Shown piece after piece: positions 46,242 through 62,758 of a stretch of DNA of 64,000 nucleotides. The stretch's first letter is position 1. Every line of letters starts with the position of its first letter. Source of the DNA: Amedibacillus dolichus DSM 3991 (GTDB lineage Bacteria > Bacillota_I > Bacilli_A > Erysipelotrichales > Erysipelotrichaceae); NCBI RefSeq assembly GCF_000154285.1, contig NZ_DS483478.1, forward strand, positions 186,001 through 250,000, written 5' to 3'. The position numbers and the translations under genes were made by a program. The notes below the pieces were generated by a model. That model had not been told where the DNA came from. It did no database searches and saw only the letters and a program-made list of their open reading frames with translations.

Positions 46242-46984
46242 TTTTCAACCGCCTCAACAAAGCTCTTAACCAAATGAACGTCTACAACATCATAATCACA
46301 TATATGTTCTCCACTGAGATAGGCATAGCTTACCTTTTCGGATAATGTTGTCGGATCACTGCAATAGGATTTACATGATGAGTGAAGCTGATAAAGTCCG
46401 CTTTCTTCCAACATTTGTTTGGCGTTGGCAGCATTGATTCCGCTTCCGGCAAGAATTTGAATAGAATCACCGTATTTGCTTTGTAAATCATGCAGTAATT
46501 TTGCACCGTCAATAGCTTTTGCCTCTAAACCACTGGTAAGTACACGATCAACTCCGCATTGAATGAGATCCTCCATTGCTTTGTATGGATCTTTGCATAC
46601 ATCAAATGCGCGATGGAATACAGCGGTTTTGTTGTAGGAATGAATTAGATCTACCATGTTTTTGGTTTTATCTGTATGAATGGTAAAATCCTCGTTTAAA
46701 AAACCGAATACGATCCCATCAGCACCGTTTTCCAATAGGATACGTGCATCTTCCATCATGGTATCGGTATCAACGTCATCATAACAAAATCCGGCAGCTC
46801 TGGGGCGTACCATGCAGATTACACTTAAAGAGGTATCACGTTTTACTTTGCGTAGGGTTGCGACACTTGGTGTTAGTCCTCCTACACTCAATGCACTGTT
46901 TAGTTCGACTCTGCTTGCTCCGCCTTTTTCCGCAGCAATGCAGTCTTGATAGCTTCCTGTGCAGATTTCAACAATTTTATTCAT
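46238..46984 (-). CDS. cutC: CutC-family TIM-barrel protein
   Basis: 248 residues from ATG 46984, with ggtgat 4-8 bp upstream inside the end of the M20 gene; GTG/ATG at 46993/46990 are too close to it. Family motifs: EICTGSYQDCIAAEKGGASRVEL, ICMVRPRAAGFCY, TAVFHRAFDVCKDP and LTSGLEAKAIDG, ILAGSGI. CutC was named for copper tolerance, a role later disputed. Here it lies in a sugar-PTS/peptidase operon with no copper gene, which suggests a metabolic enzyme. Coupled to genes on both sides by overlaps. Confidence 0.9.
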   Translation of the reverse strand: MNKIVEICTGSYQDCIAAEKGGASRVELNSALSVGGLTPSVATLRKVKRDTSLSVICMVRPRAAGFCYDDVDTDTMMEDARILLENGADGIVFGFLNEDFTIHTDKTKNMVDLIHSYNKTAVFHRAFDVCKDPYKAMEDLIQCGVDRVLTSGLEAKAIDGAKLLHDLQSKYGDSIQILAGSGINAANAKQMLEESGLYQLHSSCKSYCSDPTTLSEKVSYAYLSGEHICDYDVVDVHLVKSFVEAVEK

Positions 46985-48113: not shown

Positions 48114-49073
48114 TTATTTGCGAACAAGTGGAGCGGTTCTGGTTTTCATATAGTTTTCTAACCATTCTTCACTTGCTACTTCAAAATATTGTTTTCCCGC
48201 TTCGTCAAATTGAACCAAATAAACCGTAGGTTCTTCTTTTTCGGTTGCTACGGCAAAAGAGAAGCCCTGAATGTTGGTCGCAACGCCCCATTCACCTTTG
48301 TTATTCATCGCAATCAAGGACATATCACCGGCTTTTCCACGACGTTTTTTCAATTCCTTATCGAAATTTGTAACCGCAATATCACAAGCCTCTTGTGGTG
48401 TTTTTCCTTCTTTCATCAAACGGACGATTTCATAGGAAACACAGCCCTTCATCACATCTTCGCCCAAACCGGTAGCACTGGCACCGCCCACCTCGGAATC
48501 GACATAGAAGCCGGAACCGGATATCGGAGAATCACCGACACGTCCCGCACGTTTCATGAATAAGCCGCTTGTGCTTGTTGCAGCACTCATGTGAGCGCCT
48601 TGATCTACGCAAACCATACCAACGGTGTCATGTCCGGAATATGGCTTTAGTTCCAAGTCCTTGGATTCCTTCACTCGATTGTGATAATGGATCTTAGCTC
48701 GTTCAGTCAACATGTTTTTGCGTTCAAAGCCATTGCGATGGGCGTATTTTTCAGCTCCTGCTCCAACCAGAAAGTTGTTTACCGGCTCTTTGGATAAAGC
48801 GCGGGCAATACTTACGGGATTTGCGTAATCTTTAATCGCACCGACACAGCCGATATCCAGTGTATCTCCGTCCATAAAGGCAGCATCGAGCTCTACCTCC
48901 ATTTCTTCATTTGGAAGTCCTCCATAACCGACGCTTTTGTAAAACTCAAAATCTTCAACCGCACGAACGGCTGTTTCGATGGCATCGCCGCAAGAAGCGC
49001 CGTCTTTTAACATTTCTTTTGCTTCTGTAATACCTTCTAATGCCATTCGCCATGTTGCTATAATACCAAACAT
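48114..49073 (-). CDS. N4-(beta-N-acetylglucosaminyl)-L-asparaginase family hydrolase
   Basis: 319 residues from ATG 49073 (aggaggaaag upstream). Ntn-hydrolase of the aspartylglucosaminidase group. The autocleavage and nucleophile motif is GHDTVGM with Thr150, close to the HDTIGM of true glycosylasparaginases; plant-type isoaspartyl peptidases have GGTVGAV instead. RVGDSPISGSGFY and GGASATGLGEDVM complete the substrate pocket. Predicted to cut the GlcNAc-Asn bond (or a phosphorylated form) to aspartate and amino sugar. No signal peptide, so it acts inside the cell, downstream of the IIB gene and upstream of M20. Confidence 0.9.
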   Translation of the reverse strand: MFGIIATWRMALEGITEAKEMLKDGASCGDAIETAVRAVEDFEFYKSVGYGGLPNEEMEVELDAAFMDGDTLDIGCVGAIKDYANPVSIARALSKEPVNNFLVGAGAEKYAHRNGFERKNMLTERAKIHYHNRVKESKDLELKPYSGHDTVGMVCVDQGAHMSAATSTSGLFMKRAGRVGDSPISGSGFYVDSEVGGASATGLGEDVMKGCVSYEIVRLMKEGKTPQEACDIAVTNFDKELKKRRGKAGDMSLIAMNNKGEWGVATNIQGFSFAVATEKEEPTVYLVQFDEAGKQYFEVASEEWLENYMKTRTAPLVRK

Positions 49074-49139
49074 TGTCTTTCCTCCTATTTCCAAGTATGT
49101 ACTTCTTATAAAATAATTAAAATCGCCTATCCAGCGATT

Positions 49140-49463
49140 TTAGTTGTTTTTAAACTTTTTCATCTGGACGATTGCTTTTTTCAATACTTTTTCTGCGTCC
49201 ATCATTCCGTAATCAGCTGCATCAATAACAGCTACAGGAATCTTATCTCCGTATTTTTCGTTAATTTCATTATAAAGGAATTTTGTCTGCGGACCGATTA
49301 GAATGCAATCTAATGGTGTTTCTTCGATAATATCCTGAATTTTCTTGTAGGAGAATGCCTTGCATTCAATTGGCAGGTTGTTTTTGTCAGCTACCTCCTG
49401 CATACGCTGAGCCATCATGCTGGTAGACATACCGTTGTCGCAAAATAAGTAAACTCGTTTCAT
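49140..49463 (-). CDS. PTS EIIB component, lactose/cellobiose family
   Basis: 107 residues. Phosphorylated Cys8 in YLFCDNGMSTSMMAQRM; the CxxGxST loop is the family hallmark. IGPQTKFLYNEINEKYGDKIPVAVIDAADYGMMD is the second conserved part. aggaggtac precedes the ATG on the minus strand. Receives phosphate from the IIA encoded 13 bp upstream and serves the IIC encoded at 58469, 9 kb away, the only IIC of this family in the window. Confidence 0.94.
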   Translation of the reverse strand: MKRVYLFCDNGMSTSMMAQRMQEVADKNNLPIECKAFSYKKIQDIIEETPLDCILIGPQTKFLYNEINEKYGDKIPVAVIDAADYGMMDAEKVLKKAIVQMKKFKNN

Positions 49464-49476
49464 GTTATAGTACCTC

Positions 49477-49800
49477 CTATTTATTTTCTAGAGCTTGAAA
49501 CTTTTTGAATATTATAATCTGTTGTTGGGCAAATGCTTTAAAGCTTTCCGCAGCCATCAACTGATCTTCTGCGTGCATCAATAACATATTCGGTGTTACA
49601 GGTTCTCCGCTGGCTTCCTTTTGAATAAGTGAAGCATGCGCCTCATGACCCTTAATAAAAATCTCTTCACCTTCTTTAATGAGTGCCTCCGCTTTTTCGA
49701 AATCATAGTTTTGAGCTGCCATAGCTGCTTCCATATACATTGATTTTGCAGAACCGACACAAGAGATTATTTGGAAACTAATCATTTCCAATCCTTCCAT
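49477..49800 (-). CDS. PTS EIIA component, lactose/cellobiose family
   Basis: 107 residues, start at ATG 49800 with aaggaggg upstream. All-helical IIA type: ISCVGSAKSMYMEAAMAAQNYDFEKAEALIKEG, with the phosphorylated His in the LLMHAEDQLMAA helix. First gene of a six-gene minus-strand operon (IIA, IIB, glycosylasparaginase, M20, CutC, M81). The promoter has a TAAAAT -10 at 49835-49830 whose distance to palindrome A is 33 bp, the same as in the other promoters of the putative regulon. Confidence 0.94.
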   Translation of the reverse strand: MEGLEMISFQIISCVGSAKSMYMEAAMAAQNYDFEKAEALIKEGEEIFIKGHEAHASLIQKEASGEPVTPNMLLMHAEDQLMAAESFKAFAQQQIIIFKKFQALENK

Positions 49801-49868
49801 TTTGTTCCCTCCTTATACCTTTCGCTGTAATTTTACAATATTTAAGTGATGTTTTCATTCAACTCGGC

Positions 49869-49914
49869 TTCCTAGTGTTAGGAAATAAAGGTTCTACCTT
49901 CCTATAGGTAGGAA
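49869..49914. promoter_or_regulatory. Two TTCCTA-N4-TAGGAA boxes between divergent IIA and M3 peptidase promoters
   Basis: Box A 49869-49884 (TTCCTAGTGTTAGGAA) and box B 49899-49914 (TTCCTATAGGTAGGAA), centres 30 bp apart. Box A lies 33 bp from the minus-strand -10 TAAAAT (49835-49830); box B lies 32 bp from the plus-strand -10 TATAAT (49947-49952). Confidence 0.88.
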
Positions 49915-49984
49915 ATAATTAAGCTAATTTATCTATCTATCTTTATTATAATAAAAATACCATAACAAAGAAAAGAGGAAAACT

Positions 49985-51748
49985 ATGAAAAATTATGAAT
50001 GGAGCTTAGATGCATTGTATAAGGGGTATGATGACCCGATTTTTCTTGAAGATATAGAAAAGTTGAAGAATTGGAAATGTACGTTATCCGATGTATGTCA
50101 AAAACTTCAAAAAGAAACAAAGGAAATAAAACTGCATGAGGGGTTAGCACTGCTAGAAGAAATACGAGAATATACTTATCGTTTGAAGATGTACACGCAG
50201 TTAAGATTAAGTGTTGATTCCAATGATGAACAAAATAACGTATGGTCTTATACCGTAAACAATTTGATTGCGGATATCAGCTATTATGAATCAATGGTAT
50301 GGAATATCTTATTGGATATTGAGAATTTAGAAAGCTTGATTGAAACCGATGCAAAAGCAAGGGATTATCGTTTTCTTCTGCATGAAAAAATCCAAAAGCG
50401 TAAATATGATTTAAATGAACAGCAGGAGCAAATCCTATCCATGCTGTATCCTACCGGTATAAAGGCTTTTTCGGATATGTATTATGCCTTGACGGGGAAT
50501 GCCAAAGTCAATTTCAGAGGGGAAGTTCTGCCTTTAACAAAAGTTAAAAATATGTGTCATGATACTTGTAAGGAGGTAAGAAAAGACGCATTTTTGGCGG
50601 AATTAAAGGCGTATGAAGCAATCGCAGAGCCATTGTCTTTTGCGATAAGCGCAATAAAAAGTCAGCAGCTAAAGGAAGCAAGATTACGAGGTTATAAGGA
50701 TCCCTTAGAAAAGATGCTGATAGAAAGCAGAATGCGTAAGAATACATTAGATGTCATGATGAAAAGTATTGAAGCATACCTGCCGATGTTTCGTACCTAT
50801 TTAAAGAAGAAAGCATCATTGTTAGGATATGCTCAAGGGCTTCCATGGTATGAAATTTATGCGACATTAGGAGAGTGCGGCTTTCATTTTTCGATTGAGG
50901 AATGCAATGCTTATATATTGAAGCATTTTAAACCGGTTAGTGAGCATTTGTATCAAATGGTCAAGCGCGCATTTGAAGAGGATTGGATCGATTATCCTAC
51001 AAGAAAAGGAAAACAGCCGGGAGCTTTCTGTGAGAATTTAGGTTGGATCAAGGAAAGTCGAATGATTACGAATTATAATTATACGTTAAGTGATATCGTA
51101 ACCGTTGCTCATGAGCTGGGACATGCCTTTCATGGAATGATGATTGAGAATCAACCGATTTTAAATCGGGAGTATTGTATGCCTTTGGCGGAAACCGCTA
51201 GTACATTTAATGAGAATATTATATACAATGCCTTAGCGGCGGATATGAATGCAAAGGATCGATTGTTGGTATTGGATACACAGCTATCTGCATTATGCCA
51301 AAATATATTGGATATTTATGCGCGTTTTCAATTTGAAAAAGCAGTTTTCGAGCATGTTGAAAAGGGCTTTTTAAATGCTTCACAATTATGTGAACTGATG
51401 AAAGAGGCATTGTTAAAGTCCTTTGGTGATGGCTTAGATCCGAAGTATTTACACCCATATCGTTGGATAACAAAGGTGCATTATTATTTGCCGGATATTG
51501 CTTATTATAATTTTCCATATACATTTGGGGCATTGTTTTCCAGAGGCTTGTACGCTAAATATCAAGCGGAGGGAAGTACGTTTATTCCAAAATACGAAGC
51601 ATTGCTTCAAGCAACGACAACCAATACGGTGGAAGATGTAGCAAGGATTGCCGGTATTGATATAACAACCGATACCTTTTGGAAACAAAGCTTACAATCC
51701 ATTGTGGATCAAATGCAGGAATTTTTGAAGTTGATAGAAAAGGAGTAG
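49985..51748 (+). CDS. pepF: M3-family oligoendopeptidase F
   Basis: 587 residues. Zinc-binding HExxH in VTVAHELGHAFHGMM with the downstream Glu in MPLAETASTFNENI; C-terminal HYYLPDIAYYNFPYTFGALFSRGLY is typical of PepF. Cuts internal bonds of peptides about 7-17 residues long in the cytoplasm. aagaggaaa precedes the ATG. Divergent from the PTS-IIA operon and under box B; three bases before the M19 gene, so both peptidases share a transcript. Confidence 0.94.
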   Translation: MKNYEWSLDALYKGYDDPIFLEDIEKLKNWKCTLSDVCQKLQKETKEIKLHEGLALLEEIREYTYRLKMYTQLRLSVDSNDEQNNVWSYTVNNLIADISYYESMVWNILLDIENLESLIETDAKARDYRFLLHEKIQKRKYDLNEQQEQILSMLYPTGIKAFSDMYYALTGNAKVNFRGEVLPLTKVKNMCHDTCKEVRKDAFLAELKAYEAIAEPLSFAISAIKSQQLKEARLRGYKDPLEKMLIESRMRKNTLDVMMKSIEAYLPMFRTYLKKKASLLGYAQGLPWYEIYATLGECGFHFSIEECNAYILKHFKPVSEHLYQMVKRAFEEDWIDYPTRKGKQPGAFCENLGWIKESRMITNYNYTLSDIVTVAHELGHAFHGMMIENQPILNREYCMPLAETASTFNENIIYNALAADMNAKDRLLVLDTQLSALCQNILDIYARFQFEKAVFEHVEKGFLNASQLCELMKEALLKSFGDGLDPKYLHPYRWITKVHYYLPDIAYYNFPYTFGALFSRGLYAKYQAEGSTFIPKYEALLQATTTNTVEDVARIAGIDITTDTFWKQSLQSIVDQMQEFLKLIEKE

Positions 51749-51751
51749 TTT

Positions 51752-52657
51752 ATGTTTTTCGCAAATTTACATGATGATATCGGGAATGATATTTATGAGC
51801 ATCGCTTTCAAGAGCCGAATCGTTTAGATGAATTTCATTATCCGCGTTTTAAACAAGGAAAGATGAAGTTTTCCGCAATTGTATGCTGTTTTAGCGGCAG
51901 TGAGGATTGGAAAGCTATGATGAATACTGTTTTATATGTGGAACGTAAGATTCAGGAAAGCCGTTATTTTTCCTTTCGAGAGGATAAAGAAATACAGGTG
52001 TTTCTTGCGGTAGAAGGAATGTGTGGTATTCAAGAGGAGGTGGAAGTGAAAATCCAATGGCTTTATGAGCATCATGTTCGTCTGGGCTCTTTGTGTTGGA
52101 ATGATGAAAATGCTTTGGCAATCGGAGCTAAAAAAGGAAACAAGCCGCTAACGGAAAAAGGAATTCGGGCAATTAAAGAAATGAGTAGGCTACATATGGC
52201 GATTGATACAAGTCATTGCTGCGAGTGGAATTTTTATGATATCGCTAGGGTAAGTAAGGAAGCAATCATAGCTTCGCACAGCAACGTAAAGGCCTTGTAT
52301 AATCACTATCGCAATTTAAGTGATCCGCAATTACAGGTAGTGAAAGCTAAAAACGGCTTGGTTGGCGCAATATGTGTACGTTGGTTCGTGAAGAAAAAAG
52401 AGGATAAAGCAACCTTGCAGGATTATATTGAGGTTATAAAATATCTGAAAGAAACGATTGGAGTAAAGCATATTGCATTAGGCTTTGATTTTATGGATTA
52501 TATAGAAGGAATGGAAGAAAGCAATGTGACTGGGATAAAGGATATTACAGAAATCGGCAATATTGCAGCTGCGCTTAAGGAAAACGGATTTCAGGAAGAA
52601 GAAATCGAGAAAATCTGTTTTCAAAATGCAGTGGATTTTATGAAATCCTATCTATAA
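51752..52657 (+). CDS. M19-family (renal-type) dipeptidase
   Basis: 301 residues. Metal ligands: ANLHDDIG at the start (HxD), FLAVEGM (bridging Glu), AIDTSHC (His), IIASHSN (His) and ALGFDFMDY (Asp), in family order. M19 enzymes hydrolyse dipeptides, including ones with D-residues or dehydro-residues. It has no signal peptide. Shares the pepF transcript and ribosome-site spacing (aaggag 5-6 bp before the ATG). Slightly shorter than the usual 310-400. Confidence 0.9.
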   Translation: MFFANLHDDIGNDIYEHRFQEPNRLDEFHYPRFKQGKMKFSAIVCCFSGSEDWKAMMNTVLYVERKIQESRYFSFREDKEIQVFLAVEGMCGIQEEVEVKIQWLYEHHVRLGSLCWNDENALAIGAKKGNKPLTEKGIRAIKEMSRLHMAIDTSHCCEWNFYDIARVSKEAIIASHSNVKALYNHYRNLSDPQLQVVKAKNGLVGAICVRWFVKKKEDKATLQDYIEVIKYLKETIGVKHIALGFDFMDYIEGMEESNVTGIKDITEIGNIAAALKENGFQEEEIEKICFQNAVDFMKSYL

Positions 52658-52730
52658 AGAAGAATGTGTTTAATGAAAGACCGGTTTACGTTTATGATGA
52701 AATTTGTTTTTTATAGTAATGGTGATGAGT

Positions 52731-52985
52731 ATGATTCGATACGCAAAAGCCTTAAATAAGATAACCGATACTTTAATTTCTTTAACATGTTTTGTAGCAT
52801 TGCTTTTTCATGATTATTTAACAGTCTATGCGTTTTTTATGCTATTGCCTTTTCTATGTGTTACTTCGTTATTGAACATATATGCATATTGGAAAGATAA
52901 AAGCTATGGGATCACAAAGCTATTGACCGGTTTGTTTTGGATAGCGGTTATCATAGTGGCGGTTATTACAAATATTTATAATTAG
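52731..52985 (+). CDS. Small three-span membrane protein
   Basis: 84 residues from ATG 52731 (ggtgat 4-9 bp upstream); starts at 52719 or 52725 are possible. Hydrophobic segments at ITDTLISLTCFVALLFH, YAFFMLLPFLCVTSLLNIYAY and LLTGLFWIAVIIVAVITNIY. It follows the M19 gene by 73 bp and lies before the YitT gene on the opposite strand. No family recognised. Confidence 0.6.
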   Translation: MIRYAKALNKITDTLISLTCFVALLFHDYLTVYAFFMLLPFLCVTSLLNIYAYWKDKSYGITKLLTGLFWIAVIIVAVITNIYN

Positions 52986-53004
52986 ACAGTGAGAGGAAAG
53001 AAAA

Positions 53005-53045
53005 CATAAAAAGAGTAGGAGGTATTGGTTTATTGCTTCCTACTC
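53005..53045 (-). terminator. Terminator of the YitT gene
   Basis: GAGTAGGA/TCCTACTC 8-9 bp stem with about 15-nt loop; minus-strand 3' flank TTTTTATG. May also stop the plus-strand transcript. Confidence 0.78.
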
Positions 53046-53062
53046 GTTTGCTTCTTATTCTT

Positions 53063-53944
53063 TTATTCAATAGGCTTTTGATAAAATTTGCCATAGAAAT
53101 TCAAAGTGCTGTATGTATTGATCAATGCGTCGGGCTTTACGCTGCGGATACAATCTACGACATCTCGTACTTCATAGCTGCTGACAACGGTTTTACAAAG
53201 GTAAAACCGTTTTTTGCTGTACCCTCCATAAGCGGTAATAACGCTCATACCATGGTGAAAATTATTCATAAAGGCTTCGGTGATGACTTCCGGATCGTTG
53301 GTGGTTATTTCGATAGTAATTTGTTCATAACGCTGATAGAAGTTAGAAATCGTTCTCGTGGATATTAGCTGAAATATAATGGAGTAGCCGGCATGTTCCC
53401 AACCGAACAAATACCCGAATATAATCAGCATGGAGCAGTTAAATATAAAGACATAATCCCAAATGCTTTTATGGATTTTATTGGATACATATAAGGCGAT
53501 GAAATCCGTTCCGCCGGTTGAACCATTTGCACGTAGTGCCAATACAACACTCATGCCGTATAGGAAGCCGCCAAACAATACATTCAATGTTAAATCATCG
53601 AATAACGGAGAAAAATCCAAGAACTGAAGAAATACTGATGTTAAGATGAATTGAATGCAGCTAAGTAAGGTGAAGCGATGGGAAACACTTTTATAGGCAA
53701 GCAGGGCAGCGGGGATGTTCAAGGCTAAAATCCCCAAAGAAGTGGAAAAGTTGAAACCGAATAGGTTGCTGATTTTGTTTAATAAAATCGCAACACCCGT
53801 AAATCCGCTAGATAATAAATTGCATGGATCCATGAAAACATTGATTACGTAGACTTGCAGAAGGCTGCTTGCGATAATCATAATAATAGATATAATAAAA
53901 CGAATCGATTTTATTTTTTGAAGATCCTTTATTTTCTTAGCCAT
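53063..53944 (-). CDS. YitT family membrane protein
   Basis: 293 residues. Five membrane segments in the N-terminal 190 residues, with the DUF161 motifs SGFTGVAILLNKIS and ANGSTGGTDFIALYVS, then the cytoplasmic DUF2179 domain with TAYGGYSKKRFYLCKTVVSSYE and a C-terminal DALINTYSTLNFYGKF. Widespread in Firmicutes, function poorly known. Divergent from the PRD regulator. aggggtgc precedes the ATG. Box C at 54015 is far (70 bp) from its start, so co-regulation is possible but unshown. Confidence 0.92.
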   Translation of the reverse strand: MAKKIKDLQKIKSIRFIISIIMIIASSLLQVYVINVFMDPCNLLSSGFTGVAILLNKISNLFGFNFSTSLGILALNIPAALLAYKSVSHRFTLLSCIQFILTSVFLQFLDFSPLFDDLTLNVLFGGFLYGMSVVLALRANGSTGGTDFIALYVSNKIHKSIWDYVFIFNCSMLIIFGYLFGWEHAGYSIIFQLISTRTISNFYQRYEQITIEITTNDPEVITEAFMNNFHHGMSVITAYGGYSKKRFYLCKTVVSSYEVRDVVDCIRSVKPDALINTYSTLNFYGKFYQKPIE

Positions 53945-54014
53945 GAAAGCACCCCTCTTATAATAATTGCATATCCATTATAGGTAAAATAATACATTTG
54001 TTATATAAGACTGT

Positions 54015-54058
54015 TTCCTAACATTCGGAACAAAAGTTCTATTTCCTAATATTAGGAA
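54015..54058 (+). promoter_or_regulatory. Two TTCCTA-type boxes before the PRD regulator
   Basis: Box C 54015-54030 (TTCCTAACATTCGGAA, one mismatch) and box D 54043-54058 (TTCCTAATATTAGGAA, perfect). Box D ends 32 bp before TAAAAT (54091-54096). Suggests the regulator controls its own gene. Confidence 0.85.
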
Positions 54059-54120
54059 ATTGTAGGAGTTAAAAAAGCGTGGATTTGTAGTAAAATAATG
54101 TTTATAAGGAAGGTGTTTCT

Positions 54121-56031
54121 ATGCTAAATAAGCGTCAGGAAAAGATTATTCTTTTATTAGATGATTCGAAAAGCTGGATAACAGGTAAGGAAATATCGCG
54201 TTTGATGAATGTGTCGGATCGTACGATACGTAGTGATATCGACACAATAAACAGATATTATGATAAACCGTTGATTGAATCGAATTTAAGAAGTGGGTAT
54301 CGTATCAATCAAGAGGTATTGGTTACTTTGCCGATAGAGTTAAATACGGTAATTCCGCAGACACCGGAAGAAAGATGTATTTATATTATTCAGGAGCTGA
54401 TGTTTGAGAAAAGCGAGATCAATCTGTTGGATTTGCAAGATCAAGTATTTATCAGTGGTTATTCCATTGATAATGATATTAAGCGTATCAAGAAAATGTT
54501 GGAGCCTTACGATGATATTAAGCTAGTTCGCTCTCGTAATTATATTCATTTGGAGGGGAGTGAACAAAGCAAGCGACAGCTGTATAAGGAGCTGTTATCT
54601 CAAGAAACACAAGGGAATTTCCTGAATTTGAATAGATTATCCAGTATGTTTCAGGATTTTGATCTATTAAAAGTGAAAAAAGAATTGGAAGATGTTTTGG
54701 ATCATTATAACTATCATGTCAGAGAAATGTCGATGCCGATGCTGATGATTCATGTAGGTATCGCTGTTGAACGTATGCTGCGTTACAATTATATCGAAAC
54801 TTCCAGATCGGTTCCCGAATTAGAAGAACATAAAGAATATTTGATTGCGAAAGAATTTTTTAAACGTCTATCCAAAAGAATACGCATTGAGGTTGTTGAT
54901 GATGAGGTGAAGCTGCTTGCGATGCAGCTTATGGGGAAAAAGTCGGTTACGTTATCGAACGACTTGGTTAATTCCTATAAGAAGGACTTAAATGTGGATA
55001 CACTGGTTGATGAGATCATTGAAAATATACATAATAATTTTGATATTGATTTTTCTAAAGATACCGATTTAAAAAACGGTTTGGCAGTGCATTTGCAGGG
55101 ACTGATTGAAAGAAGAAATAAAAATATCAATATTTCCAATATCTATTTGCAAGAGCTGAAAAGAAAATATCCGTTGGTGTTTGAATTGGCAATCAGGGTA
55201 GGCGAATTTTTAGAACAGGTGCTGAAAACGGATATTTCGGAAAATGAATTGGGCTTTTTGGCATTGCATTTAGGAGCTGCTTATGAAAGATACAACACGA
55301 ATAGTAAATATCGAGCAGTCATGATTTATCCGATCGATCAGGCATTGAGTGATTTTTGTGTAAAGAAGATTGAAAACTTATTCTCGGAGCGTATGGATAT
55401 CGTGGCTTGTGTCAGCTTCTTTGAGGAAAAAAGCATACAGAGCATAAAGCCGGATATTATTTTAACAACCTTACAGCTAAAGCATAATTTGGAGATTCCT
55501 ACGATTCAAATTTCGTTATTTTTGAATAATGAAGATGAAAGTAAAATCTTTCAAGCTTTAAATATCTTAGATAAAAAACGCTTCCGTAAAGAGTTTGAAG
55601 AAAGTCTGGTAAAGCTGATTGAAAAGAAAAACTTTTATTACGATTTAGATTTACAGACACCGCAAGAGGTCATCACGTATATGTGTGATCGCTTAGAGGA
55701 AGCCGGCTATTGCAATGAGGATTTTAAGAACTCGGTATTGCAAAGAGAAAAGATGGCAGCAACCAGCTTCGTATATTCCTTTGCGGTTCCCCATTCTTTA
55801 AATGTCGCAAGCATTTGCCCGTCTATCTCCGTTGCTTTTTTGAAGAAGCCGATTCAATGGGGAGATTTTGAGGTAAAGATGGTAATGCTGCTTGCTACAA
55901 ATGAGGAGCAATCGAATATTTTAAAGATGTTCTTTTCTTGGTTAAGCAATATGATCAACGATGCAAATCATTTTGCGGCGTTATTAGAAACCAAAAGCTA
56001 TGAAGAATTTATCGCAAAGATAATAGAATAA
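54121..56031 (+). CDS. LicR/MtlR-type PRD transcriptional activator of the PTS-peptidase regulon
   Basis: 636 residues, in order: HTH (ITGKEISRLMNVSDRTIRSDI) at 1-60, second HTH-like part to about 150, PRD1 about 175-275 (His in LMIHVGIAVERML), PRD2 about 285-395 (His in LAVHLQGLIERR and LGFLALHLGAAYER), a degenerate EIIB-like domain to about 485 that lacks the usual Cys, and an EIIA-like domain at 500-636 with the phosphorylatable His in SFAVPHSLN. Such proteins activate PTS operons and are tuned by HPr/EIIB phosphorylation. The TTCCTA-N4-TAGGAA palindromes at its own promoter and at four others nearby are the likely binding sites. aaggaaggtg precedes the ATG. Confidence 0.92.
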   Translation: MLNKRQEKIILLLDDSKSWITGKEISRLMNVSDRTIRSDIDTINRYYDKPLIESNLRSGYRINQEVLVTLPIELNTVIPQTPEERCIYIIQELMFEKSEINLLDLQDQVFISGYSIDNDIKRIKKMLEPYDDIKLVRSRNYIHLEGSEQSKRQLYKELLSQETQGNFLNLNRLSSMFQDFDLLKVKKELEDVLDHYNYHVREMSMPMLMIHVGIAVERMLRYNYIETSRSVPELEEHKEYLIAKEFFKRLSKRIRIEVVDDEVKLLAMQLMGKKSVTLSNDLVNSYKKDLNVDTLVDEIIENIHNNFDIDFSKDTDLKNGLAVHLQGLIERRNKNINISNIYLQELKRKYPLVFELAIRVGEFLEQVLKTDISENELGFLALHLGAAYERYNTNSKYRAVMIYPIDQALSDFCVKKIENLFSERMDIVACVSFFEEKSIQSIKPDIILTTLQLKHNLEIPTIQISLFLNNEDESKIFQALNILDKKRFRKEFEESLVKLIEKKNFYYDLDLQTPQEVITYMCDRLEEAGYCNEDFKNSVLQREKMAATSFVYSFAVPHSLNVASICPSISVAFLKKPIQWGDFEVKMVMLLATNEEQSNILKMFFSWLSNMINDANHFAALLETKSYEEFIAKIIE

Positions 56032-56044
56032 GAAAGAGGTACTT

Positions 56045-56653
56045 ATGAAAAAAATGAATTCATTTCGAGCAGGTGTTAAATTAGGCGTAGGTAACATCAA
56101 CAACTTTTCACGTTTATTTGCATATTTGATTGACTGGTATATCGCAACGATGATGGCAGGGATTCCGATCGTGTTGATCAATTCCTTTGTTAAGCACTCC
56201 ACCGATGTATCACAGGATCTATCCAAATTACCGAAAGATATGGCGATCTTAGCCGGAATATTGGGGATTGTTTTCTATATCGGATATTTTGTTGTTTTGG
56301 AGTTGTTTGTGTATAAAGGACAAACCTTCGGTAAGCGCATCATGAAAATAAAGGTCGTTAAAAATGATGGAAGCGATGTGGATTTTTGGACAATTATCAA
56401 AAGAGAGGCAATCGGTGTTATGTTGATTGAGGGATATATTGCGAATAGCTCCAGTTATCTGCGTCAGGTGATATCCATTGCGACAGGTGTAAATATTATG
56501 GAAATGGCAACGTATCTGTTTGGTATCATCAGTGTTATTTCTATCTTGATTGGCTTGGCAAGCACATCTAGGAAAATGATTCATGATTATGTTGCCGGTA
56601 CGTGTGAAATCAGCAATAAAGAGGAACAAAGTGGTGAAGCATTTCACGCATAA
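56045..56653 (+). CDS. RDD family membrane protein
   Basis: 202 residues. RDD signature FSRLFAYLIDWYIA with the Arg-Asp pair in the first membrane helix, then three further spans and the conserved GQTFGKRIMKIKVV loop and RKMIHDYVAGT. 13 bp after the PRD regulator, so co-transcribed under box D. RDD proteins are proposed transporters; possibly a helper for the sugar/peptide system. Confidence 0.88.
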   Translation: MKKMNSFRAGVKLGVGNINNFSRLFAYLIDWYIATMMAGIPIVLINSFVKHSTDVSQDLSKLPKDMAILAGILGIVFYIGYFVVLELFVYKGQTFGKRIMKIKVVKNDGSDVDFWTIIKREAIGVMLIEGYIANSSSYLRQVISIATGVNIMEMATYLFGIISVISILIGLASTSRKMIHDYVAGTCEISNKEEQSGEAFHA

Positions 56654-56691
56654 ACAGTTGAAATATGATTTTTGATGCTGAAAGAATATGA

Positions 56692-56717
56692 AAAAGGACA
56701 TCGTCGGGTGTCCTTTT
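56692..56717 (+). terminator. Terminator of the regulator-RDD unit
   Basis: AAAAGGACA/TGTCCTTTT stem with 7-8 nt loop, ending in TTTTGTG. Confidence 0.82.
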
Positions 56718-56823
56718 GTGTATGGATAATGTATAAAGCTTGTGGACTTCTTTTGAGCTTTTGATATGTTTTAAAATCATGCTTAAACGAAGAAAAATAA
56801 CGATTAGACTTTTTTTTGTTCTC

Positions 56824-57402
56824 TTAAATCTTTTCGTCGTATTTGTCGTGTTTAAATCCTATTTCGTTTCTATAATCATTTCGAAGGCTTTTTAAATTAT
56901 GTTCTTCGGCAAGGCTTTCCCAATTTTTATTTAAGACCGCATCGATTTCTTTTCCATCTTTTGTCAGAATGAGTGATGATAAATCAGTTGAAAAGTCATT
57001 TATTGGGATATCATAGGCTTTACATTGTTTTAAAAAGATTTTCAGTTTTTCATAATCTCTTGATTCGAAACTCAATTTTAATCCTTTTTTTGTTTCTAAT
57101 GTTAAACAAATGAAATATGTATTCGTTGGAAAACTAAAACCTGCACCCTTTGTAGGTAGGATACGTGAGTAAGCAGAAACGTTTACTTTTCCCAATGAAG
57201 AAAATGTAATCGAAATTTTATTTTCGACAAAAACTTTTCCAAAGAAAACAATACATTCTTTTTCAATCTTAGCATTTAATGAAAGGGGTGAGGTTTGTTT
57301 TGTGCTAAGCAAATTCATAATAGTGGTTGCTTGGTCCTTTTCTGAAAATTCTATTGACATTATATATTTATTCATTAGGGATAAAATTTCGCTTTTTTCC
57401 AT
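56824..57402 (-). CDS. Hypothetical protein, soluble
   Basis: 192 residues from ATG 57402, 7 bp after aggaggt; the ATG at 57408 is too close. No signal peptide or membrane segment. Beta-rich middle (ISITFSSLGKVNVSAYSRI, YFICLTLETKKGLKLSFESRDY) followed by a charged helical tail. The third gene of a minus-strand group with TfoX and SRPBCC genes that has nothing obvious to do with the surrounding PTS regulon. No family recognised. Confidence 0.65.
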   Translation of the reverse strand: MEKSEILSLMNKYIMSIEFSEKDQATTIMNLLSTKQTSPLSLNAKIEKECIVFFGKVFVENKISITFSSLGKVNVSAYSRILPTKGAGFSFPTNTYFICLTLETKKGLKLSFESRDYEKLKIFLKQCKAYDIPINDFSTDLSSLILTKDGKEIDAVLNKNWESLAEEHNLKSLRNDYRNEIGFKHDKYDEKI

Positions 57403-57513
57403 TGTCATACCTCCTATCTTCGACTCTATTGCTATTAAAATATATTTTGATTTGTTTGGTTGTTAAATTTTATCAATGTTGAAGGATTATAATATTGTGA
57501 AATTAGAAGCTGT

Positions 57514-57834
57514 TTATTTTTTCTTTCTAGGTTTTGGCGCTGGCAGTTCATCATACATTGCATCAAATAAACCTATTAGAAAATCTTTATTATCAACTTC
57601 TTCCACGAATAACATTTCTTTGGCATTTTCGTATGGTATCGCATAGGTAACTGTTGGCATATATGAAATTGCAGACCTTGTTGGTTTAACAAGCAGTCTA
57701 TCATCGTAGATACCGCCAATGATTTTTCCACGATAATAGAGGATATATTCTCCCATCATTGCTCGATATGTTATTTCTTGTAATTCTGATAATTGTTCTA
57801 AAATAAATTGCAGATACTCTTTACTTGACGCCAT
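57514..57834 (-). CDS. TfoX N-terminal domain protein
   Basis: 106 residues. TfoX_N motifs: ITYRAMMGEYILYYRGKIIGGIYDDRLLVKPT and AIPYENAKEMLFVEEV; basic PKPRKKK tail. Only the N-terminal half of TfoX/Sxy is present. Full-length TfoX acts in competence in Gammaproteobacteria; stand-alone N-domain proteins in Firmicutes have no known role. ggaggttt precedes the ATG. Confidence 0.9.
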   Translation of the reverse strand: MASSKEYLQFILEQLSELQEITYRAMMGEYILYYRGKIIGGIYDDRLLVKPTRSAISYMPTVTYAIPYENAKEMLFVEEVDNKDFLIGLFDAMYDELPAPKPRKKK

Positions 57835-57860
57835 TTCTAAACCTCCAATCTTACACTTTA

Positions 57861-58256
57861 TTATTCTAATGCTTTCTTTAAATCCATAACAAATTGCTTT
57901 TGTTGCTTTTTCAAATAAGCTTTTATAAAAGGTTTCATAAACCGCTTTTTAGGTATCACATATTCTGTGAAGTCTATTTCTGTTGCATTCCCTTTGTCTG
58001 TAAAAATACCGATCCAATGACCTTTCATGTTACTGTTCTCCATATCAAATTCCCAGCGTTTATATGGTTCTACAACGGTAACGGTAAATGTAGTAGCATA
58101 TCCATTTTTAGTGTATTCGATAAATTGTTCGTCATTGATTATTTCTGTTTTGCTTACATCACTTCGCCATAAGGTATATCTATCAACAGCTAAAACAATA
58201 CTCCAAACTTTTTGAATATCATGATTGATAATTGTATTTATATTTGAAACTGCCAT
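57861..58256 (-). CDS. SRPBCC-fold (START/Bet v1-like) protein
   Basis: 131 residues from ATG 58256 (aaaggg upstream). Begins NINTIINHDIQKVWSIVLAVDRYTLWRSDVS and ends with an amphipathic helix KAYLKKQQKQFVMDLKKAL, the pattern of polyketide cyclase/dehydrase-like SRPBCC proteins with a ligand cavity. First gene of the three-gene minus group. Its promoter region faces box E of the IIC gene, but it is not obviously part of that regulon. Confidence 0.85.
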   Translation of the reverse strand: MAVSNINTIINHDIQKVWSIVLAVDRYTLWRSDVSKTEIINDEQFIEYTKNGYATTFTVTVVEPYKRWEFDMENSNMKGHWIGIFTDKGNATEIDFTEYVIPKKRFMKPFIKAYLKKQQKQFVMDLKKALE

Positions 58257-58384
58257 TTTTATACGCCCTTTCAAATTTGATTGGTTACTTTCTTCTTAAC
58301 TATATTATAACTATCTTCTATATCGGTCGCAATAAAAACATTAACGTTTACCTACAAGCGAGTTGTAAAAAAATAATCAATCAT

Positions 58385-58400
58385 TTCCTAGAGATAGGAA
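58385..58400 (+). promoter_or_regulatory. TTCCTA-N4-TAGGAA box before PTS IIC
   Basis: TTCCTAGAGATAGGAA, perfect palindromic arms. Ends 33 bp before TAAAGT (58434-58439), which has an upstream TGG. A degenerate second copy (TTCTAAACTATGGGAA, 58411-58426) sits at the -35 position. Confidence 0.88.
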
Positions 58401-58468
58401 ACGATTTGATTTCTAAACTATGGGAAATCATGGTAAAGTTTTAATCGGAAAGAAAGAGAGGTTTCATT

Positions 58469-59827
58469 ATGAATAAACTTGAAAAATTTTTGATGCCTTT
58501 AGCCGATGTTCTAACCAAGAACAGGGTGTTGATCGCAATTCGTGATGGTTTCCTAATTACTACCCCATTGCTGATTGTCGGTTCTATTTTCTTGTTGATT
58601 GCGAACTTCCCGATTCCAGGTTGGGAAAGTGCGATTGCCAATGTATTAGGACCGGATTGGACCGAATGGTTTACAGCGGTTTCAAGAGCATCATTTAACT
58701 GTACCGGTTTATTGACTGCATTAGGTACAGGGTATGCCATGGCTCGTGAGTTTGGCGGAGATAAGATTCAGGGAGCTGCTGTTGCGGCAGTTGCATTCTT
58801 TATCTTAATGCCTACATCTCATATAGCTACAGATGCAGAGGGAGCATTGGTAGAGGGAGCAACTGTTTCAGGTCTATCATTTGATTATATCGGACCAAAC
58901 GGTATCTTCATGGCATTGATTTGTGCGATTCTCGGTGTATGGTTATTCTGCTATGCTTATAAAAAAGGTTGGACAATTAAAATGCCTCAGGGTGTTCCTC
59001 CTGCAGTAATGGATTCTTTTGCGGCATTGGTTCCAAGTGCAATCGTTATGGCATGTGCGTTCTTGATTCGTATCGTATTCTCATTTACGGAATTCGGTAC
59101 AATGCAGGACTTCATCGTTGCTATTTTGCAGACACCGCTAGAAGGCTTAGGGGATACACTAGGTGCAAACCTGCTATATACATTTATGTGTTCATTCCTA
59201 TGGTTCTTCGGTATCAATGGTCCTGCCGTAGCGAACTCTGTTTACTTTATCGGAAACGTATTGACTGCAAAACAGCTGATGGCATTTGAAGCCGGTCAGG
59301 CATTGCCATATATCTTTACCAATCCGTTCAGTAACTTCTTTACGAACTTTGGTGGTGGAGGCTCCACGCTCTCCCTTGTAATTCTGATGGTTACGGTATG
59401 TAAATCAAAACGTATCAAACAGCTTGGACGTTTATCTATCGTACCTGGATTCTTCGGAATCAACGAACCGATTATTTTCGGTTTGCCGATTGTATTAAAT
59501 CCAATCATTATTATTCCGTTTATTTTTGTGCCAATGATAAATTTGACATTGTCTTATTGGGCGACGTTGGCAGATATCATTCCACGTACAACGGGTGTTA
59601 GTTTACCTTGGACAACACCGATTGGCTTCTCCGGTTGGTTATCTACCGGCTCATGGAAAGCGGCAGTATGGCAGATTTTCTTATTAGTGCTTGGTATTCT
59701 TATCTATTATCCATTTATTAAAACACTGGATAAAAAATACTTAGAAGATGAACAAAAGGCGGAAGCAAACGCTGAGGAAGCAGAAGAAGATTTCGATTTT
59801 GCGGACTTGGATTTAAGCGATCTATAA
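58469..59827 (+). CDS. PTS EIIC component, lactose/cellobiose family
   Basis: 452 residues, about ten membrane segments. Family motifs: FLMPLADVLTKNRVLIAIRDGFLITTPLLIVGSIFLL at the N-terminus, NPFSNFFTNFGGGGSTLSLV and GFFGINEPIIFGLPIVLNP (sugar-binding Glu) and PWTTPIGFSGWLSTGSWKAAVWQ. Acidic tail. It is the membrane channel for the IIA/IIB pair encoded at 49140-49800. Close relatives carry cellobiose, chitobiose or lactose; a beta-linked or amino-sugar substrate is reasonable. agagaggt precedes the ATG. Confidence 0.94.
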   Translation: MNKLEKFLMPLADVLTKNRVLIAIRDGFLITTPLLIVGSIFLLIANFPIPGWESAIANVLGPDWTEWFTAVSRASFNCTGLLTALGTGYAMAREFGGDKIQGAAVAAVAFFILMPTSHIATDAEGALVEGATVSGLSFDYIGPNGIFMALICAILGVWLFCYAYKKGWTIKMPQGVPPAVMDSFAALVPSAIVMACAFLIRIVFSFTEFGTMQDFIVAILQTPLEGLGDTLGANLLYTFMCSFLWFFGINGPAVANSVYFIGNVLTAKQLMAFEAGQALPYIFTNPFSNFFTNFGGGGSTLSLVILMVTVCKSKRIKQLGRLSIVPGFFGINEPIIFGLPIVLNPIIIIPFIFVPMINLTLSYWATLADIIPRTTGVSLPWTTPIGFSGWLSTGSWKAAVWQIFLLVLGILIYYPFIKTLDKKYLEDEQKAEANAEEAEEDFDFADLDLSDL

Positions 59828-59899
59828 AATTTACAATAGATTTTCTATGGAATTGCTAGTTTTTCGTATATAATATTTACTAGATTAGGAGTGATGGGT

Positions 59900-60427
59900 A
59901 TGATGAAAGTAATGATGATCTTTGATCAGACACAAGCCGGACTTGGCGGAAAAGAAAGTCCCGATTTACCAATGGGCGGTAAGCCTATGGCAATTGGTTC
60001 TTGTGGAATGTTTGAACGCTTCATGGAACAAAATGACGGTAAAGTAGTCGCAACGCTTTGGTGCGGAGATGGAACCTTTAAAGCCGATCCGGAATTGAAT
60101 GCTAAAAAGTTTGCTGCAATGGCAAAGAAATTCGGACCTGATGTCGTTATATGCGGACCTTGTTTTAACTACGGAAACTATGGGTTGATGGCTGCAAAAA
60201 CAGCAATGACCATCAATGAGCATACCGATATTCCTGCCTTTGCGATTATGTCAAAGGAATGCGAAGAAGCTATATCCGAATACAAGGATAAGGTTACGAT
60301 TCTTCAGATGCCGAAAAAAGGCGGTATCGGGTTAAATGAAGCATTGAGCGAAATGTGTGTATTTGCGAAAATGTTGGTGGATAAACAAGATACAACCGAT
60401 TTTATCGCTCAGCACGCCTATAAGTAA
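59900..60427 (+). CDS. Short protein related to the N-terminal part of GrdB (glycine-reductase component B)
   Basis: 175 residues from ATG 59900, 8 bp after taggag. FDQTQAGLGGKESPDLPMGGKPMAIGS, VATLWCGDGTF and the GPDVVICGPCFNYGNYGLMAAKTA motif match GrdB/selenoprotein-B-like proteins, which reduce glycine, sarcosine or betaine. It lacks the C-terminal half. TGA is not used internally; Cys residues 34, 52, 89 and 92 are potential redox groups. Lies 72 bp after the PTS IIC gene and before two M42 peptidases, without its own TTCCTA box, so it is likely read from the IIC promoter. Function is open. Confidence 0.7.
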   Translation: MMKVMMIFDQTQAGLGGKESPDLPMGGKPMAIGSCGMFERFMEQNDGKVVATLWCGDGTFKADPELNAKKFAAMAKKFGPDVVICGPCFNYGNYGLMAAKTAMTINEHTDIPAFAIMSKECEEAISEYKDKVTILQMPKKGGIGLNEALSEMCVFAKMLVDKQDTTDFIAQHAYK

Positions 60428-60434
60428 ACATGAT

Positions 60435-60466
60435 AAGGGATAATTCGATAAGAGTTATCTCTTTTC
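60435..60466 (+). terminator. Terminator after the GrdB-like gene
   Basis: AAGGGATAA/TTATCTCTT stem (one G-U) with 11-nt loop, then TTTT. Confidence 0.8.
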
Positions 60467-60510
60467 TGTTTTTCTACGAAAGAAAAGATTGCGAAGGAGT
60501 GAACAGCAGT

Positions 60511-60526
60511 TTCCTACCTTTAGGAA
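60511..60526 (+). promoter_or_regulatory. TTCCTA-N4-TAGGAA box before M42 peptidase operon
   Basis: TTCCTACCTTTAGGAA, perfect arms. Ends 32 bp before TATAAT (60559-60564). Confidence 0.88.
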
Positions 60527-60589
60527 AAAAGGTTCATAAATATATTGGATAAAAAGACTATAATTAAAGAATAAGGAAGGGTGAGTAAA

Positions 60590-61642
60590 ATGGAACAAAA
60601 AAGTATAGCTCTATTAGAAGAATTGACACAGGCGATTGGTATTTCGGGAGATGAGAAAGAAGTATCTCGCAAAATGAAGAATCACTTGGAAAAGTTGAGT
60701 GATGAAATTATATATGATAATTTAGGTTCTGTATTTGCAGTGAAAAAATGTGGTAAAGAAAATGCCAAAAGAGTAATGGTTTGTGCACACATGGACGAAG
60801 TAGGCTTCATGTTAAATGAAATCGGTGATAACGGACTTGCCGGTTTCATTAAAATCGGTGCTGTAAGTGATGCTGCTTTGTATGGTAGTCGTGTTCGTGT
60901 AAAAACCAGAACCGATGAAGTACATGGAATTATTGTTGCTGATGAAGAAGGTGCAGCTAAAGCGCTGGGAAAAAATATGAAGATTGATCTAGGTGTAAAT
61001 GATTCCAAAGAGGTAGCAAAACTGGGTGTGATGGTTGGTGATAGCGCTGTATTGGACGGCAGCTTTATGACCTTAGGAAATCGAGCGATCGCAAAAGCCA
61101 TTGATGCTCGTTTCGGCTGTGCTTTGGCAATTGAAATTTTAGAAGCGTTGAAAGATGAATGCCTTGATTTTGATTTGTATGTCGGTGCAAGTGTTATGGA
61201 AGAAATAGGACAACGTGGAGGAACAACGGCAACCGGATTGATTCAACCGGATCTTGGAATCGTATTAGATGGCGGTGCAGCCAATGATTATGCTGGAAAA
61301 TCCAATGCGGTAGGACAGTTGGGTAAAGGTGTATTGGTACGCTACTATGATAAAGGAATGATGCCAAATCGTGCTTTGCTAGATGAATTGGTTTCGGTTT
61401 GTGAAAGCAATCAAATTGATTATCAGCATTATTATTCAATGAGCTTAACCGATGCTGCATGGATACATAAGCTATTTGCCGGTTGTCCGACATTGCATGT
61501 TGGAATCTGCGCAAGAAATCCACATACGGCCAATGCGGAAATTGATTTGCATGATTATGAATGTGCGAAGCGCTCTGCACTTGAGGTTCTTAAAGGCTTA
61601 AACGCTTCGAAAATCGATGCATTTAAGGAAGCGAATCGCTAA
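60590..61642 (+). CDS. M42-family aminopeptidase (PepA/FrvX-like)
   Basis: 350 residues from ATG 60590 (aagggtgag upstream). Zinc ligands and catalytic Glu in MVCAHMDEVGFML, DAFR-like IDARFGCALAIEIL, VMEEIGQRGG, IVLDGG and the late HTANAEIDLHD. Dodecameric cobalt/zinc aminopeptidases of this family trim small peptides. In E. coli the relatives FrvX, SgcX and YpdE are likewise encoded next to PTS genes of unknown substrate. First gene of the box G operon. Confidence 0.92.
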   Translation: MEQKSIALLEELTQAIGISGDEKEVSRKMKNHLEKLSDEIIYDNLGSVFAVKKCGKENAKRVMVCAHMDEVGFMLNEIGDNGLAGFIKIGAVSDAALYGSRVRVKTRTDEVHGIIVADEEGAAKALGKNMKIDLGVNDSKEVAKLGVMVGDSAVLDGSFMTLGNRAIAKAIDARFGCALAIEILEALKDECLDFDLYVGASVMEEIGQRGGTTATGLIQPDLGIVLDGGAANDYAGKSNAVGQLGKGVLVRYYDKGMMPNRALLDELVSVCESNQIDYQHYYSMSLTDAAWIHKLFAGCPTLHVGICARNPHTANAEIDLHDYECAKRSALEVLKGLNASKIDAFKEANR

Positions 61643-61654
61643 GAGGTAGTGCGT

Positions 61655-62758
61655 ATGACAAAAGAAATTATTGGCGATATCAATTTAAAGATGCTGGAGG
61701 AATTCAGTGAAGCGCATGGAATCAGCGGAAATGAAAAAGAAGTCAGTCGGGTAATGAAAAAGTGGTTACAGCCTTATGCCGATGAAATTAGCTACGATAA
61801 TTTAGGCTCTATTGTGGGTATTCAAAAAGGTGCTCAAGATGGCGTTAAGCTGATGATTGCAGGGCACATGGACGAGGTTGGTTTTTTGGTAAGAGAAATC
61901 GATTCGCAGGGATATATTCGAATGCTGCCGGTTGGTGGCTGGTGGGGCCATGTGTTGCCAAGTCAAACACTTGTGGTTACGACGAAGGAAGGGAAACGTT
62001 ATCAAGGTGTTGTCGGCTCCAGTGCTCCTCATGGTTTGGCAAAAGAGGTAAAAGAAAAGGTCATTGCTCCGATGGATTTATTTTTGGATATGGGGGTAGA
62101 TAGTGCAGAAGAAATCTACGAGTTGGGTATTCGAATCGGAGATATGATTACACCGGATACTAAATTTACGGTCATGAACAATCCGAATTATTTAATGGGA
62201 AAAGCTTGGGACGATCGCTTATGTGCGGCTATGATTGTTGATGTGATGCGATTGCTGAAGGCAGATTCTAAGCCGCATCATTGCAACCTATATGGAGTAG
62301 GAACCGTACAGGAGGAAGTCGGACTTCGTGGTGCCCGTACAGCAGCAAATATGATTCACCCCGATGTAGCGATTGCCTTAGATGTAACGACAAGTATGGA
62401 TACCCCGATGGATAAGGGACAAAACGGACTTGGGAAAGGTGTTATCCTCAGTGTTATGGACGCCGGAATCATCGGCAATAAGAATTTCTTGTATGAAATG
62501 GAAAGCATTTGTCATGATTTAGGCTTGGATATTAACTATGACATGATGACAGTTGGCGGAACAGATGCGGATAATATTCATAAAGCACACGATGGGGTGG
62601 TGTCATTGACACTGTCGATCCCAACACGCTATATGCATTCCCATCGTTTGATCGTTCATCGTAAGGATTATTGGCAGACCGTCTTGTTGATGAGTGAATT
62701 CGCACGCCGTTTAGATCGCAATATGCTATCGAAATTAAAGGAAGGACATAACAGTTAA
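61655..62758 (+). CDS. M42-family aminopeptidase, second copy
   Basis: 367 residues from ATG 61655 (agaggtag upstream). Ligand motifs: LMIAGHMDEVGFLVREI, MGKAWDDRLCAAMIVD, VQEEVGLRGARTA, IALDVTTS, and TRYMHSHRLIVHRKDY. Distinctly longer and different from the preceding M42 (GGWWGHVLPSQ and DMGVDSAEE stretches), so the two may form a mixed or complementary pair. 12 bp separates the two genes. The stop codon lies in the ascending arm of the terminator. Confidence 0.92.
   Translation: MTKEIIGDINLKMLEEFSEAHGISGNEKEVSRVMKKWLQPYADEISYDNLGSIVGIQKGAQDGVKLMIAGHMDEVGFLVREIDSQGYIRMLPVGGWWGHVLPSQTLVVTTKEGKRYQGVVGSSAPHGLAKEVKEKVIAPMDLFLDMGVDSAEEIYELGIRIGDMITPDTKFTVMNNPNYLMGKAWDDRLCAAMIVDVMRLLKADSKPHHCNLYGVGTVQEEVGLRGARTAANMIHPDVAIALDVTTSMDTPMDKGQNGLGKGVILSVMDAGIIGNKNFLYEMESICHDLGLDINYDMMTVGGTDADNIHKAHDGVVSLTLSIPTRYMHSHRLIVHRKDYWQTVLLMSEFARRLDRNMLSKLKEGHNS

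Follow-up and report, generated by a model that had tools for sequence, protein, structure and literature searches.

In a 64,000-nucleotide stretch of the Amedibacillus dolichus DSM 3991 genome (contig NZ_DS483478.1, positions 186,001 to 250,000; this whole stretch is called the window, and coordinates without further label refer to it), copies of the palindrome TTCCTA-N4-TAGGAA precede genes for a lactose/cellobiose-type phosphotransferase system (PTS), several peptidases, a glycosylasparaginase and a PRD regulator. A pattern search of the window located the perfect 16-mer at positions 49869, 49899, 54043, 58385 and 60511 and a one-mismatch copy at 54015, exactly where a preliminary description of this DNA had placed the six boxes. 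That description had also reported a spacing of 32-33 bp between box and -10 hexamer, which holds at all five promoters it named. It had overlooked a sixth promoter, that of the YitT gene, which is served by the one-mismatch box: on the minus strand a perfect TATAAT (53977-53982) lies 32 bp beyond it. All six promoters of the window thus share a single geometry, with the -10 starting 32-33 bp past the box end in each. The boxes and their -10 hexamers are as follows.

49869-49884, minus strand: putative operator box TTCCTAACACTAGGAA (minus-strand reading) of the IIA-IIB-glycosylasparaginase-PepV-CutC-M81 operon; perfect, -10 at 33 bp
49830-49835, minus strand: -10 TAAAAT of the IIA operon
49899-49914, plus strand: putative operator box TTCCTATAGGTAGGAA of the M3-M19 operon; -10 at 32 bp
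49947-49952, plus strand: -10 TATAAT of the M3-M19 operon
54015-54030, minus strand: one-mismatch box TTCCGAATGTTAGGAA (minus-strand reading) of the divergent YitT gene; -10 at 32 bp
53977-53982, minus strand: -10 TATAAT of the YitT gene
54043-54058, plus strand: putative operator box TTCCTAATATTAGGAA upstream of the regulator gene; perfect, -10 at 32 bp
54091-54096, plus strand: -10 TAAAAT of the regulator gene
58385-58400, plus strand: putative operator box TTCCTAGAGATAGGAA upstream of IIC; -10 at 33 bp; an orthologous box precedes IIC in the relative G014
58434-58439, plus strand: -10 TAAAGT of IIC
60511-60526, plus strand: putative operator box TTCCTACCTTTAGGAA upstream of the M42 pair; -10 at 32 bp; an orthologous box precedes the first M42 gene in G014
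60559-60564, plus strand: -10 TATAAT of the M42 pair

The units behind these boxes are the minus-strand IIA-IIB-glycosylasparaginase-PepV-CutC-M81 operon, M3-M19, YitT, the regulator with an RDD gene, IIC with a GrdB-like gene, and two M42 genes.

49477-49800, minus strand: PTS lactose/cellobiose IIA
49140-49463, minus strand: PTS lactose/cellobiose IIB
48114-49094, minus strand: glycosylasparaginase (N4-(beta-N-acetylglucosaminyl)-L-asparaginase)
46977-48104, minus strand: PepV/Sapep-like M20 dipeptidase; TIGR01887 above cut-off
46238-46993, minus strand: CutC family protein
44790-46241, minus strand: M81 (MlrC-like) peptidase, last in the IIA operon, with a separate box in G014
49985-51748, plus strand: M3 family oligoendopeptidase
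51752-52657, plus strand: M19 membrane-dipeptidase family protein
53063-53944, minus strand: YitT family membrane protein, transcribed divergently from the regulator gene; part of the conserved cassette
54121-56031, plus strand: PRD regulator, presumed box-binding activator; HTH_11, Mga helix-turn-helix (HTH), two PRDs, a further domain without the EIIB cysteine, EIIA-2
56045-56653, plus strand: RDD membrane protein, immediately 3' of the regulator; in many relatives
58469-59827, plus strand: PTS lactose/cellobiose IIC; TIGR00410 above cut-off
59891-60427, plus strand: GrdB-like protein without selenocysteine; NF041545 equivalog
60581-61642, plus strand: M42 aminopeptidase a
61649-62758, plus strand: M42 aminopeptidase b

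Three small minus-strand genes between the RDD gene and IIC (56824-58274) are mostly missing from the cassettes of relatives and look like a local insertion.

The Asparaginase_2 protein of the cassette is closest to true glycosylasparaginases, its best PDB match being 1p4k with E 1.1e-59, compared to E 8.7e-37 for the best other match. Its residue T157 aligns with the first residue of solved beta chains, and T157, R185, D188, T208 and G209, the putative catalytic and binding residues, are invariant across nine relatives. The genes nagA and nagB are encoded elsewhere in the same genome.

With the PRD regulator as alignment query, 80 loci of named genomes were collected by homology. Orthologues of the regulator occur in the same family and order and, more widely, in Erysipelotrichia, Clostridia, Lactococcus and Peribacillus; the genera represented include Faecalitalea, Longicatena, Clostridium, Peptacetobacter, Hungatella, Lacrimispora, Erysipelothrix, Lactococcus and Peribacillus. 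Many of the loci come from related genera, and flanks sharing more than 80% identity were merged into one. The transporter genes linked at the locus (IIC in 75 loci, IIB in 71, IIA in 69) and the PepV-like dipeptidase (53) are kept in most of the 80, and the other genes recur as follows: GrdB-like in 63, glycosylasparaginase in 56, CutC in 52, YitT in 45, RDD in 44 and the M42 pair in 17. A perfect box, with a spacer of either four or five nucleotides, is present in 69 of the 80 loci, chiefly upstream of the regulator, IIA, IIB, IIC or YitT, and the divergent pair of boxes between regulator and YitT is also found in relatives. When spacers of 0-15 nucleotides were scanned for the TTCCTA half-site in these 80 loci, the window and three further loci, 39 copies were obtained at N4 and 85 at N5, with few at N3 and N6, whereas each of nine control half-sites gave 0-3 copies at N4/N5. 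From the enrichment of both spacers over the controls, the operator consensus is therefore TTCCTA-N4/5-TAGGAA. The N4 spacer proposed earlier is right for the window and too narrow as a full consensus, and the pattern search found no perfect N5 box in the A. dolichus genome itself.

In order to see how far the promoter geometry extends, 219 non-redundant flanks were scanned for hexamers matching TATAAT in at least five of six positions. Such a hexamer lies exactly 32 or 33 bp past the box in 107 flanks (40 with N4 and 67 with N5 boxes), compared to an average of 1.6 (N4) and 2.8 (N5) -10-like hexamers at other offsets, and the binomial P of the peak lies between 1e-14 and 1e-34 per offset. Since the peak is identical for N4 and N5 boxes, it is the promoter-proximal half-site that is held at a fixed distance. 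When the flanks of the compared loci were aligned on the -10, no conserved -35 hexamer emerged, and the box ends about 9-10 bp short of where a -35 would begin. A fixed upstream box without a conserved -35 is the expected mark of activator-dependent promoters, a reading given earlier to the poor -35 regions of the window and now extended to the compared flanks.

The perfect 16-mer is rare. A pattern search of the 2.19-Mb genome gave six copies, five of them inside this 10.7-kb stretch, and no copy of the reversed control pattern. The preliminary description had asked for a whole-genome scan with up to two mismatches and had expected a scattered regulon. The perfect 16-mer is indeed not frequent, and five of its six copies stand at promoters of the window; these perfect boxes are clustered rather than scattered, and once two mismatches are allowed, matches are no more numerous than those of the control. 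Counted at two or more mismatches, 151 matches against 201 for the control amount to noise, and in the rest of the genome one-mismatch copies fall mostly within unrelated genes. The sixth perfect copy (G000:C4:285866-285881, or L016:6867-6882) was rejected as a regulon member. This copy belongs to an alaS T-box leader, where it forms the stem of the terminator: there is an Rfam T-box match, a T run stands behind the stem ACGTTCCTA/TAGGAACGT, the fold z-score is -5.2, and an equivalent stem occurs at alaS in the relative G013 (L071). Regulon scans with TTCCTA-N4-TAGGAA should be read with this stem in mind.

The selection of the 80 loci by the regulator favours an association between regulator and box, and genome-wide tests provide the unbiased check. 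Among 41 relatives, perfect boxes and reversed controls numbered 39 and 17 in the 11 genomes with the regulator (one of them a fragment), compared to 6 and 44 in the 30 genomes without it. A sample of 149 genomes from the class includes four with the regulator at E <1e-100; a box lies just upstream of the regulator in G104 and G129, G017 has one-mismatch boxes, and a broken copy of the regulator in G025 is also accompanied by a box. Outside the regulator genomes, this set gave 20 boxes against about 80 control matches. The glycosylasparaginase gene is present in 15 of the 149 genomes, about ten of which lack the regulator. In the regulator-less loci examined, the surroundings of this gene contained no box; the box therefore follows the regulator. 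Rearranged genes take the box along: in G014 it lies between M3 and M81, which are divergent there, and in G006 it precedes a unit of glycosylasparaginase, PepV and CutC genes at a distance of about 30 kb. The earlier proposal that the LicR-type PRD protein is the activator acting at the box is strongly supported as a prediction from sequence, by the box in 69 of 80 regulator loci, by the peak of -10 offsets without a conserved -35, and by the absence of enrichment in genomes without the regulator, even where the glycosylasparaginase gene is present.

Some further boxes and genes were noted in these genomes. A perfect N5 box precedes the gene for aspartate ammonia-lyase (aspA) in G006 (L178:3849-3865; G006:C1:2101348) and drew attention since the pathway proposed below yields aspartate; no -10 stands at the right distance of 32-33 bp, the best hexamer there matching in 3/6 positions, and we do not claim this gene for the regulon. 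For the boxes beside pyrB-like and other genes in G025, G012, G011 and G022, no connection with the pathway is apparent. At L061 (G025:C6) both regulator and glycosylasparaginase are broken although the box is still there; the cassette is decaying in G025. Upstream of a second regulator copy in G006 lies a gene (L053:3548-8521) for a 1657-residue, enhancin-like M60-peptidase protein with F5/8-type and fn3 domains, possibly an extracellular glycoprotein protease.

The regulator carries the Pfam domains HTH_11, Mga, PRD (two stretches) and PTS_EIIA_2 (E 2e-24). Its best full-length solved relative is AtxA (PDB 4r6i, E 6e-17), which shares the HTH/PRD/PRD/EIIB-like layout but regulates virulence, lacks an EIIA domain over the region of the match and has no linked PTS. 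By its HTH, two PRDs and EIIA-like domain, the protein is best placed with the LicR/CelR/MtlR-type PRD activators; that it activates PTS genes from an upstream operator is predicted from the geometry and conservation of the boxes. The streptococcal CelR operator is a TTCC...GGAA palindrome, which may serve as a lead only. CelR (PMC3585215, PMC3478281) and MtlR (PMC3217849) likewise have an HTH, an Mga domain, two PRDs and a C-terminal EIIA-like domain. Activators of this type switch on a PTS operon, and in the case of MtlR the regulator gene as well, from a palindrome immediately ahead of the -35 region (PMC3217849); the Bacillus subtilis MtlR element lies 7 bp from the -35 (PMC3217849), comparable with the 9-10 bp observed here. 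The present system differs from them in its operator, which is unlike the MtlR site, and in serving a glycoamino acid pathway with peptidases. Among 79 regulators, H211 is conserved in 74, H324 and H383 in 78 each, and H558, which lies in the C-terminal EIIA-like domain, in all 79. When sites were mapped to CelR (PMC3585215, PMC3478281) by domain order and spacing, without alignment to CelR itself, the sites of HPr-dependent activation appear to be retained, with the loss of one of the PRD1 sites and of the cysteine.

The boxes, their geometry and conservation, their linkage to the regulator and the gene families of the cassette are established. We consider it quite probable that the boxes are the operator of the PRD activator encoded at 54121-56031, governing a regulon for the use of N-acetylglucosaminyl-asparagine (GlcNAc-Asn) and N-glycopeptides; DNA binding, activation, phosphorylation control, inducer and substrate are all inferred. 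The regulator would bind TTCCTA-N4/5-TAGGAA ahead of promoters with a good -10 and no proper -35, and from this fixed position, with the box end 32-33 bp before the -10, would recruit RNA polymerase. The box TTCCTAATATTAGGAA upstream of its own gene would then indicate autoregulation. The lactose/cellobiose-type PTS would bring in GlcNAc-Asn or short N-glycopeptides and phosphorylate their sugar, the peptidases would trim the peptide portion, and the glycosylasparaginase would cleave the GlcNAc-asparagine bond to yield aspartate and an amino sugar for the Nag pathway. The regulator may be active while its own PTS is occupied with substrate and HPr is free to phosphorylate the regulator; this control is proposed because the histidines of the regulator are conserved.

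Several points weigh against this proposal. No perfect box was found in 11 of the 80 loci, some of them owing to one-mismatch boxes or contig ends. A few relatives have regulator and PTS without a glycosylasparaginase within the stretch fetched. The second PRD1 histidine (replaced by L, V or Q) and the EIIB cysteine are absent in all 79 regulators, and the phosphorylation logic must therefore differ in part from that of CelR and MtlR; since Type-I Mga proteins also lack the EIIB cysteine (PMC11537053), we do not count this residue as family-defining. The substrate, finally, is suggested by one enzyme and its neighbours, and could be GlcNAc-Asn, a glycopeptide or another glycosyl-amino acid.

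This last point leads to an alternative that we regard as unlikely, in which the same box and activator would serve another substrate, such as a beta-glucoside, a chitobiose-type sugar, another glycosyl-amino acid or muropeptides. The lactose/cellobiose family, of which the PTS is a member, is broad, the few relatives without a glycosylasparaginase in the stretch seen fit such a role, and genes for a MupG-like 6-phospho-N-acetylmuramidase occur in or beside the cassette in G006, with a box of their own (L053:17620-17636, TATAAT 33 bp on), and in G024, within the cassette (L055:6013-7101). However, none of the cassette genes was recognised as a phospho-beta-glucosidase, and the glycosylasparaginase is a clear best match (E 1e-59 compared to 1e-37), recurs in 56 of 80 loci and sits with PepV as in the GlcNAc-Asn locus of Lactobacillus casei (PMC6960285). 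Apart from this question, the MupG-like genes suggest a crosstalk with the use of cell-wall sugars. It is considerably less probable that the box is the operator of another factor, repressor or activator, encoded elsewhere, with the PRD gene just one of its targets. Adjacency to a regulator gene is by itself no proof of binding, and the boxes were found beside the regulator; but over the 41 relatives and the 149 genomes of the class the box tracks the regulator, the glycosylasparaginase genes examined in regulator-less genomes lack it, no second regulator recurs among the compared cassette genes, and a fixed upstream position without a -35 suits an activator and not a promoter-overlapping repressor. 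That the boxes are chance palindromes, or RNA hairpins or terminators without regulatory meaning, deserves practically no credence in spite of the alaS terminator stem among the six perfect copies, since conservation, half-site controls and fixed offset rule out chance and the window boxes, lying upstream of the -10, are outside the downstream transcript.

The operator of a PRD activator for GlcNAc-Asn use would add a second kind of control to a chemistry known from two loci. As described in PMC11160706, the ega locus of Enterococcus faecalis (Combret et al. 2023/2024) uses glycoprotein-derived GlcNAc-Asn and, like the cassette here, comprises a glycosylasparaginase (EgaG), lactose/cellobiose-type EIIB and EIIC, a dipeptidase and a GrdB-related putative oxidoreductase, which is a pseudogene in OG1RF. 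Its regulator, in contrast to the PRD protein, is of the GntR type, and the description of ega in PMC11160706 names no CutC, YitT, M42, M3, M19 or M81 gene and no TTCCTA box. In the L. casei alf-2 locus, which also serves the use of the glycoamino acid GlcNAc-Asn, the glycosylasparaginase gene asnA2 similarly lies beside the M20 peptidase gene pepV; alf-2 differs by having a major facilitator superfamily permease and a fucosidase instead of a PTS, the GntR regulator AlfR2, a required sugar kinase and an aspartate 4-decarboxylase (PMC6960285). In the papers searched, which include few from subscription journals, we found no report of this combination, of the operator or of the added CutC, YitT and peptidase genes, and a literature search for the half-site 6-mers in a PTS or regulon context gave nothing relevant among the papers listed; an earlier prediction of this regulon is possible. 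GlcNAc-Asn loci with GntR regulators are thus known, and what appears to be new is a similar chemistry under a PRD activator with its own operator, a regulator class unlike that of the two described loci.

The CutC protein (46238-46993) and the selenium-free GrdB-like protein (59891-60427) recur in 52 and 63 of the 80 loci, respectively. This recurrence hints at a role in glycosyl-asparagine metabolism and offers a concrete handle on two families of unclear role. It is possible, if doubtful, that whole N-glycopeptide stubs are taken through the cassette by a widespread PTS route not described so far, with CutC and the GrdB-like protein as working enzymes, which might, for example, act on the unstable amino-sugar product of the glycosylasparaginase; if true, such a route would supply a function for both orphan families. 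The fixed geometry of box and -10 eases the prediction of this regulon in other genomes. The pathway would serve the sugar-asparagine stubs that remain from host and food glycoproteins, and the box would provide an exact, testable operator and regulon for the scavenging of host glycoproteins in many gut Firmicutes.

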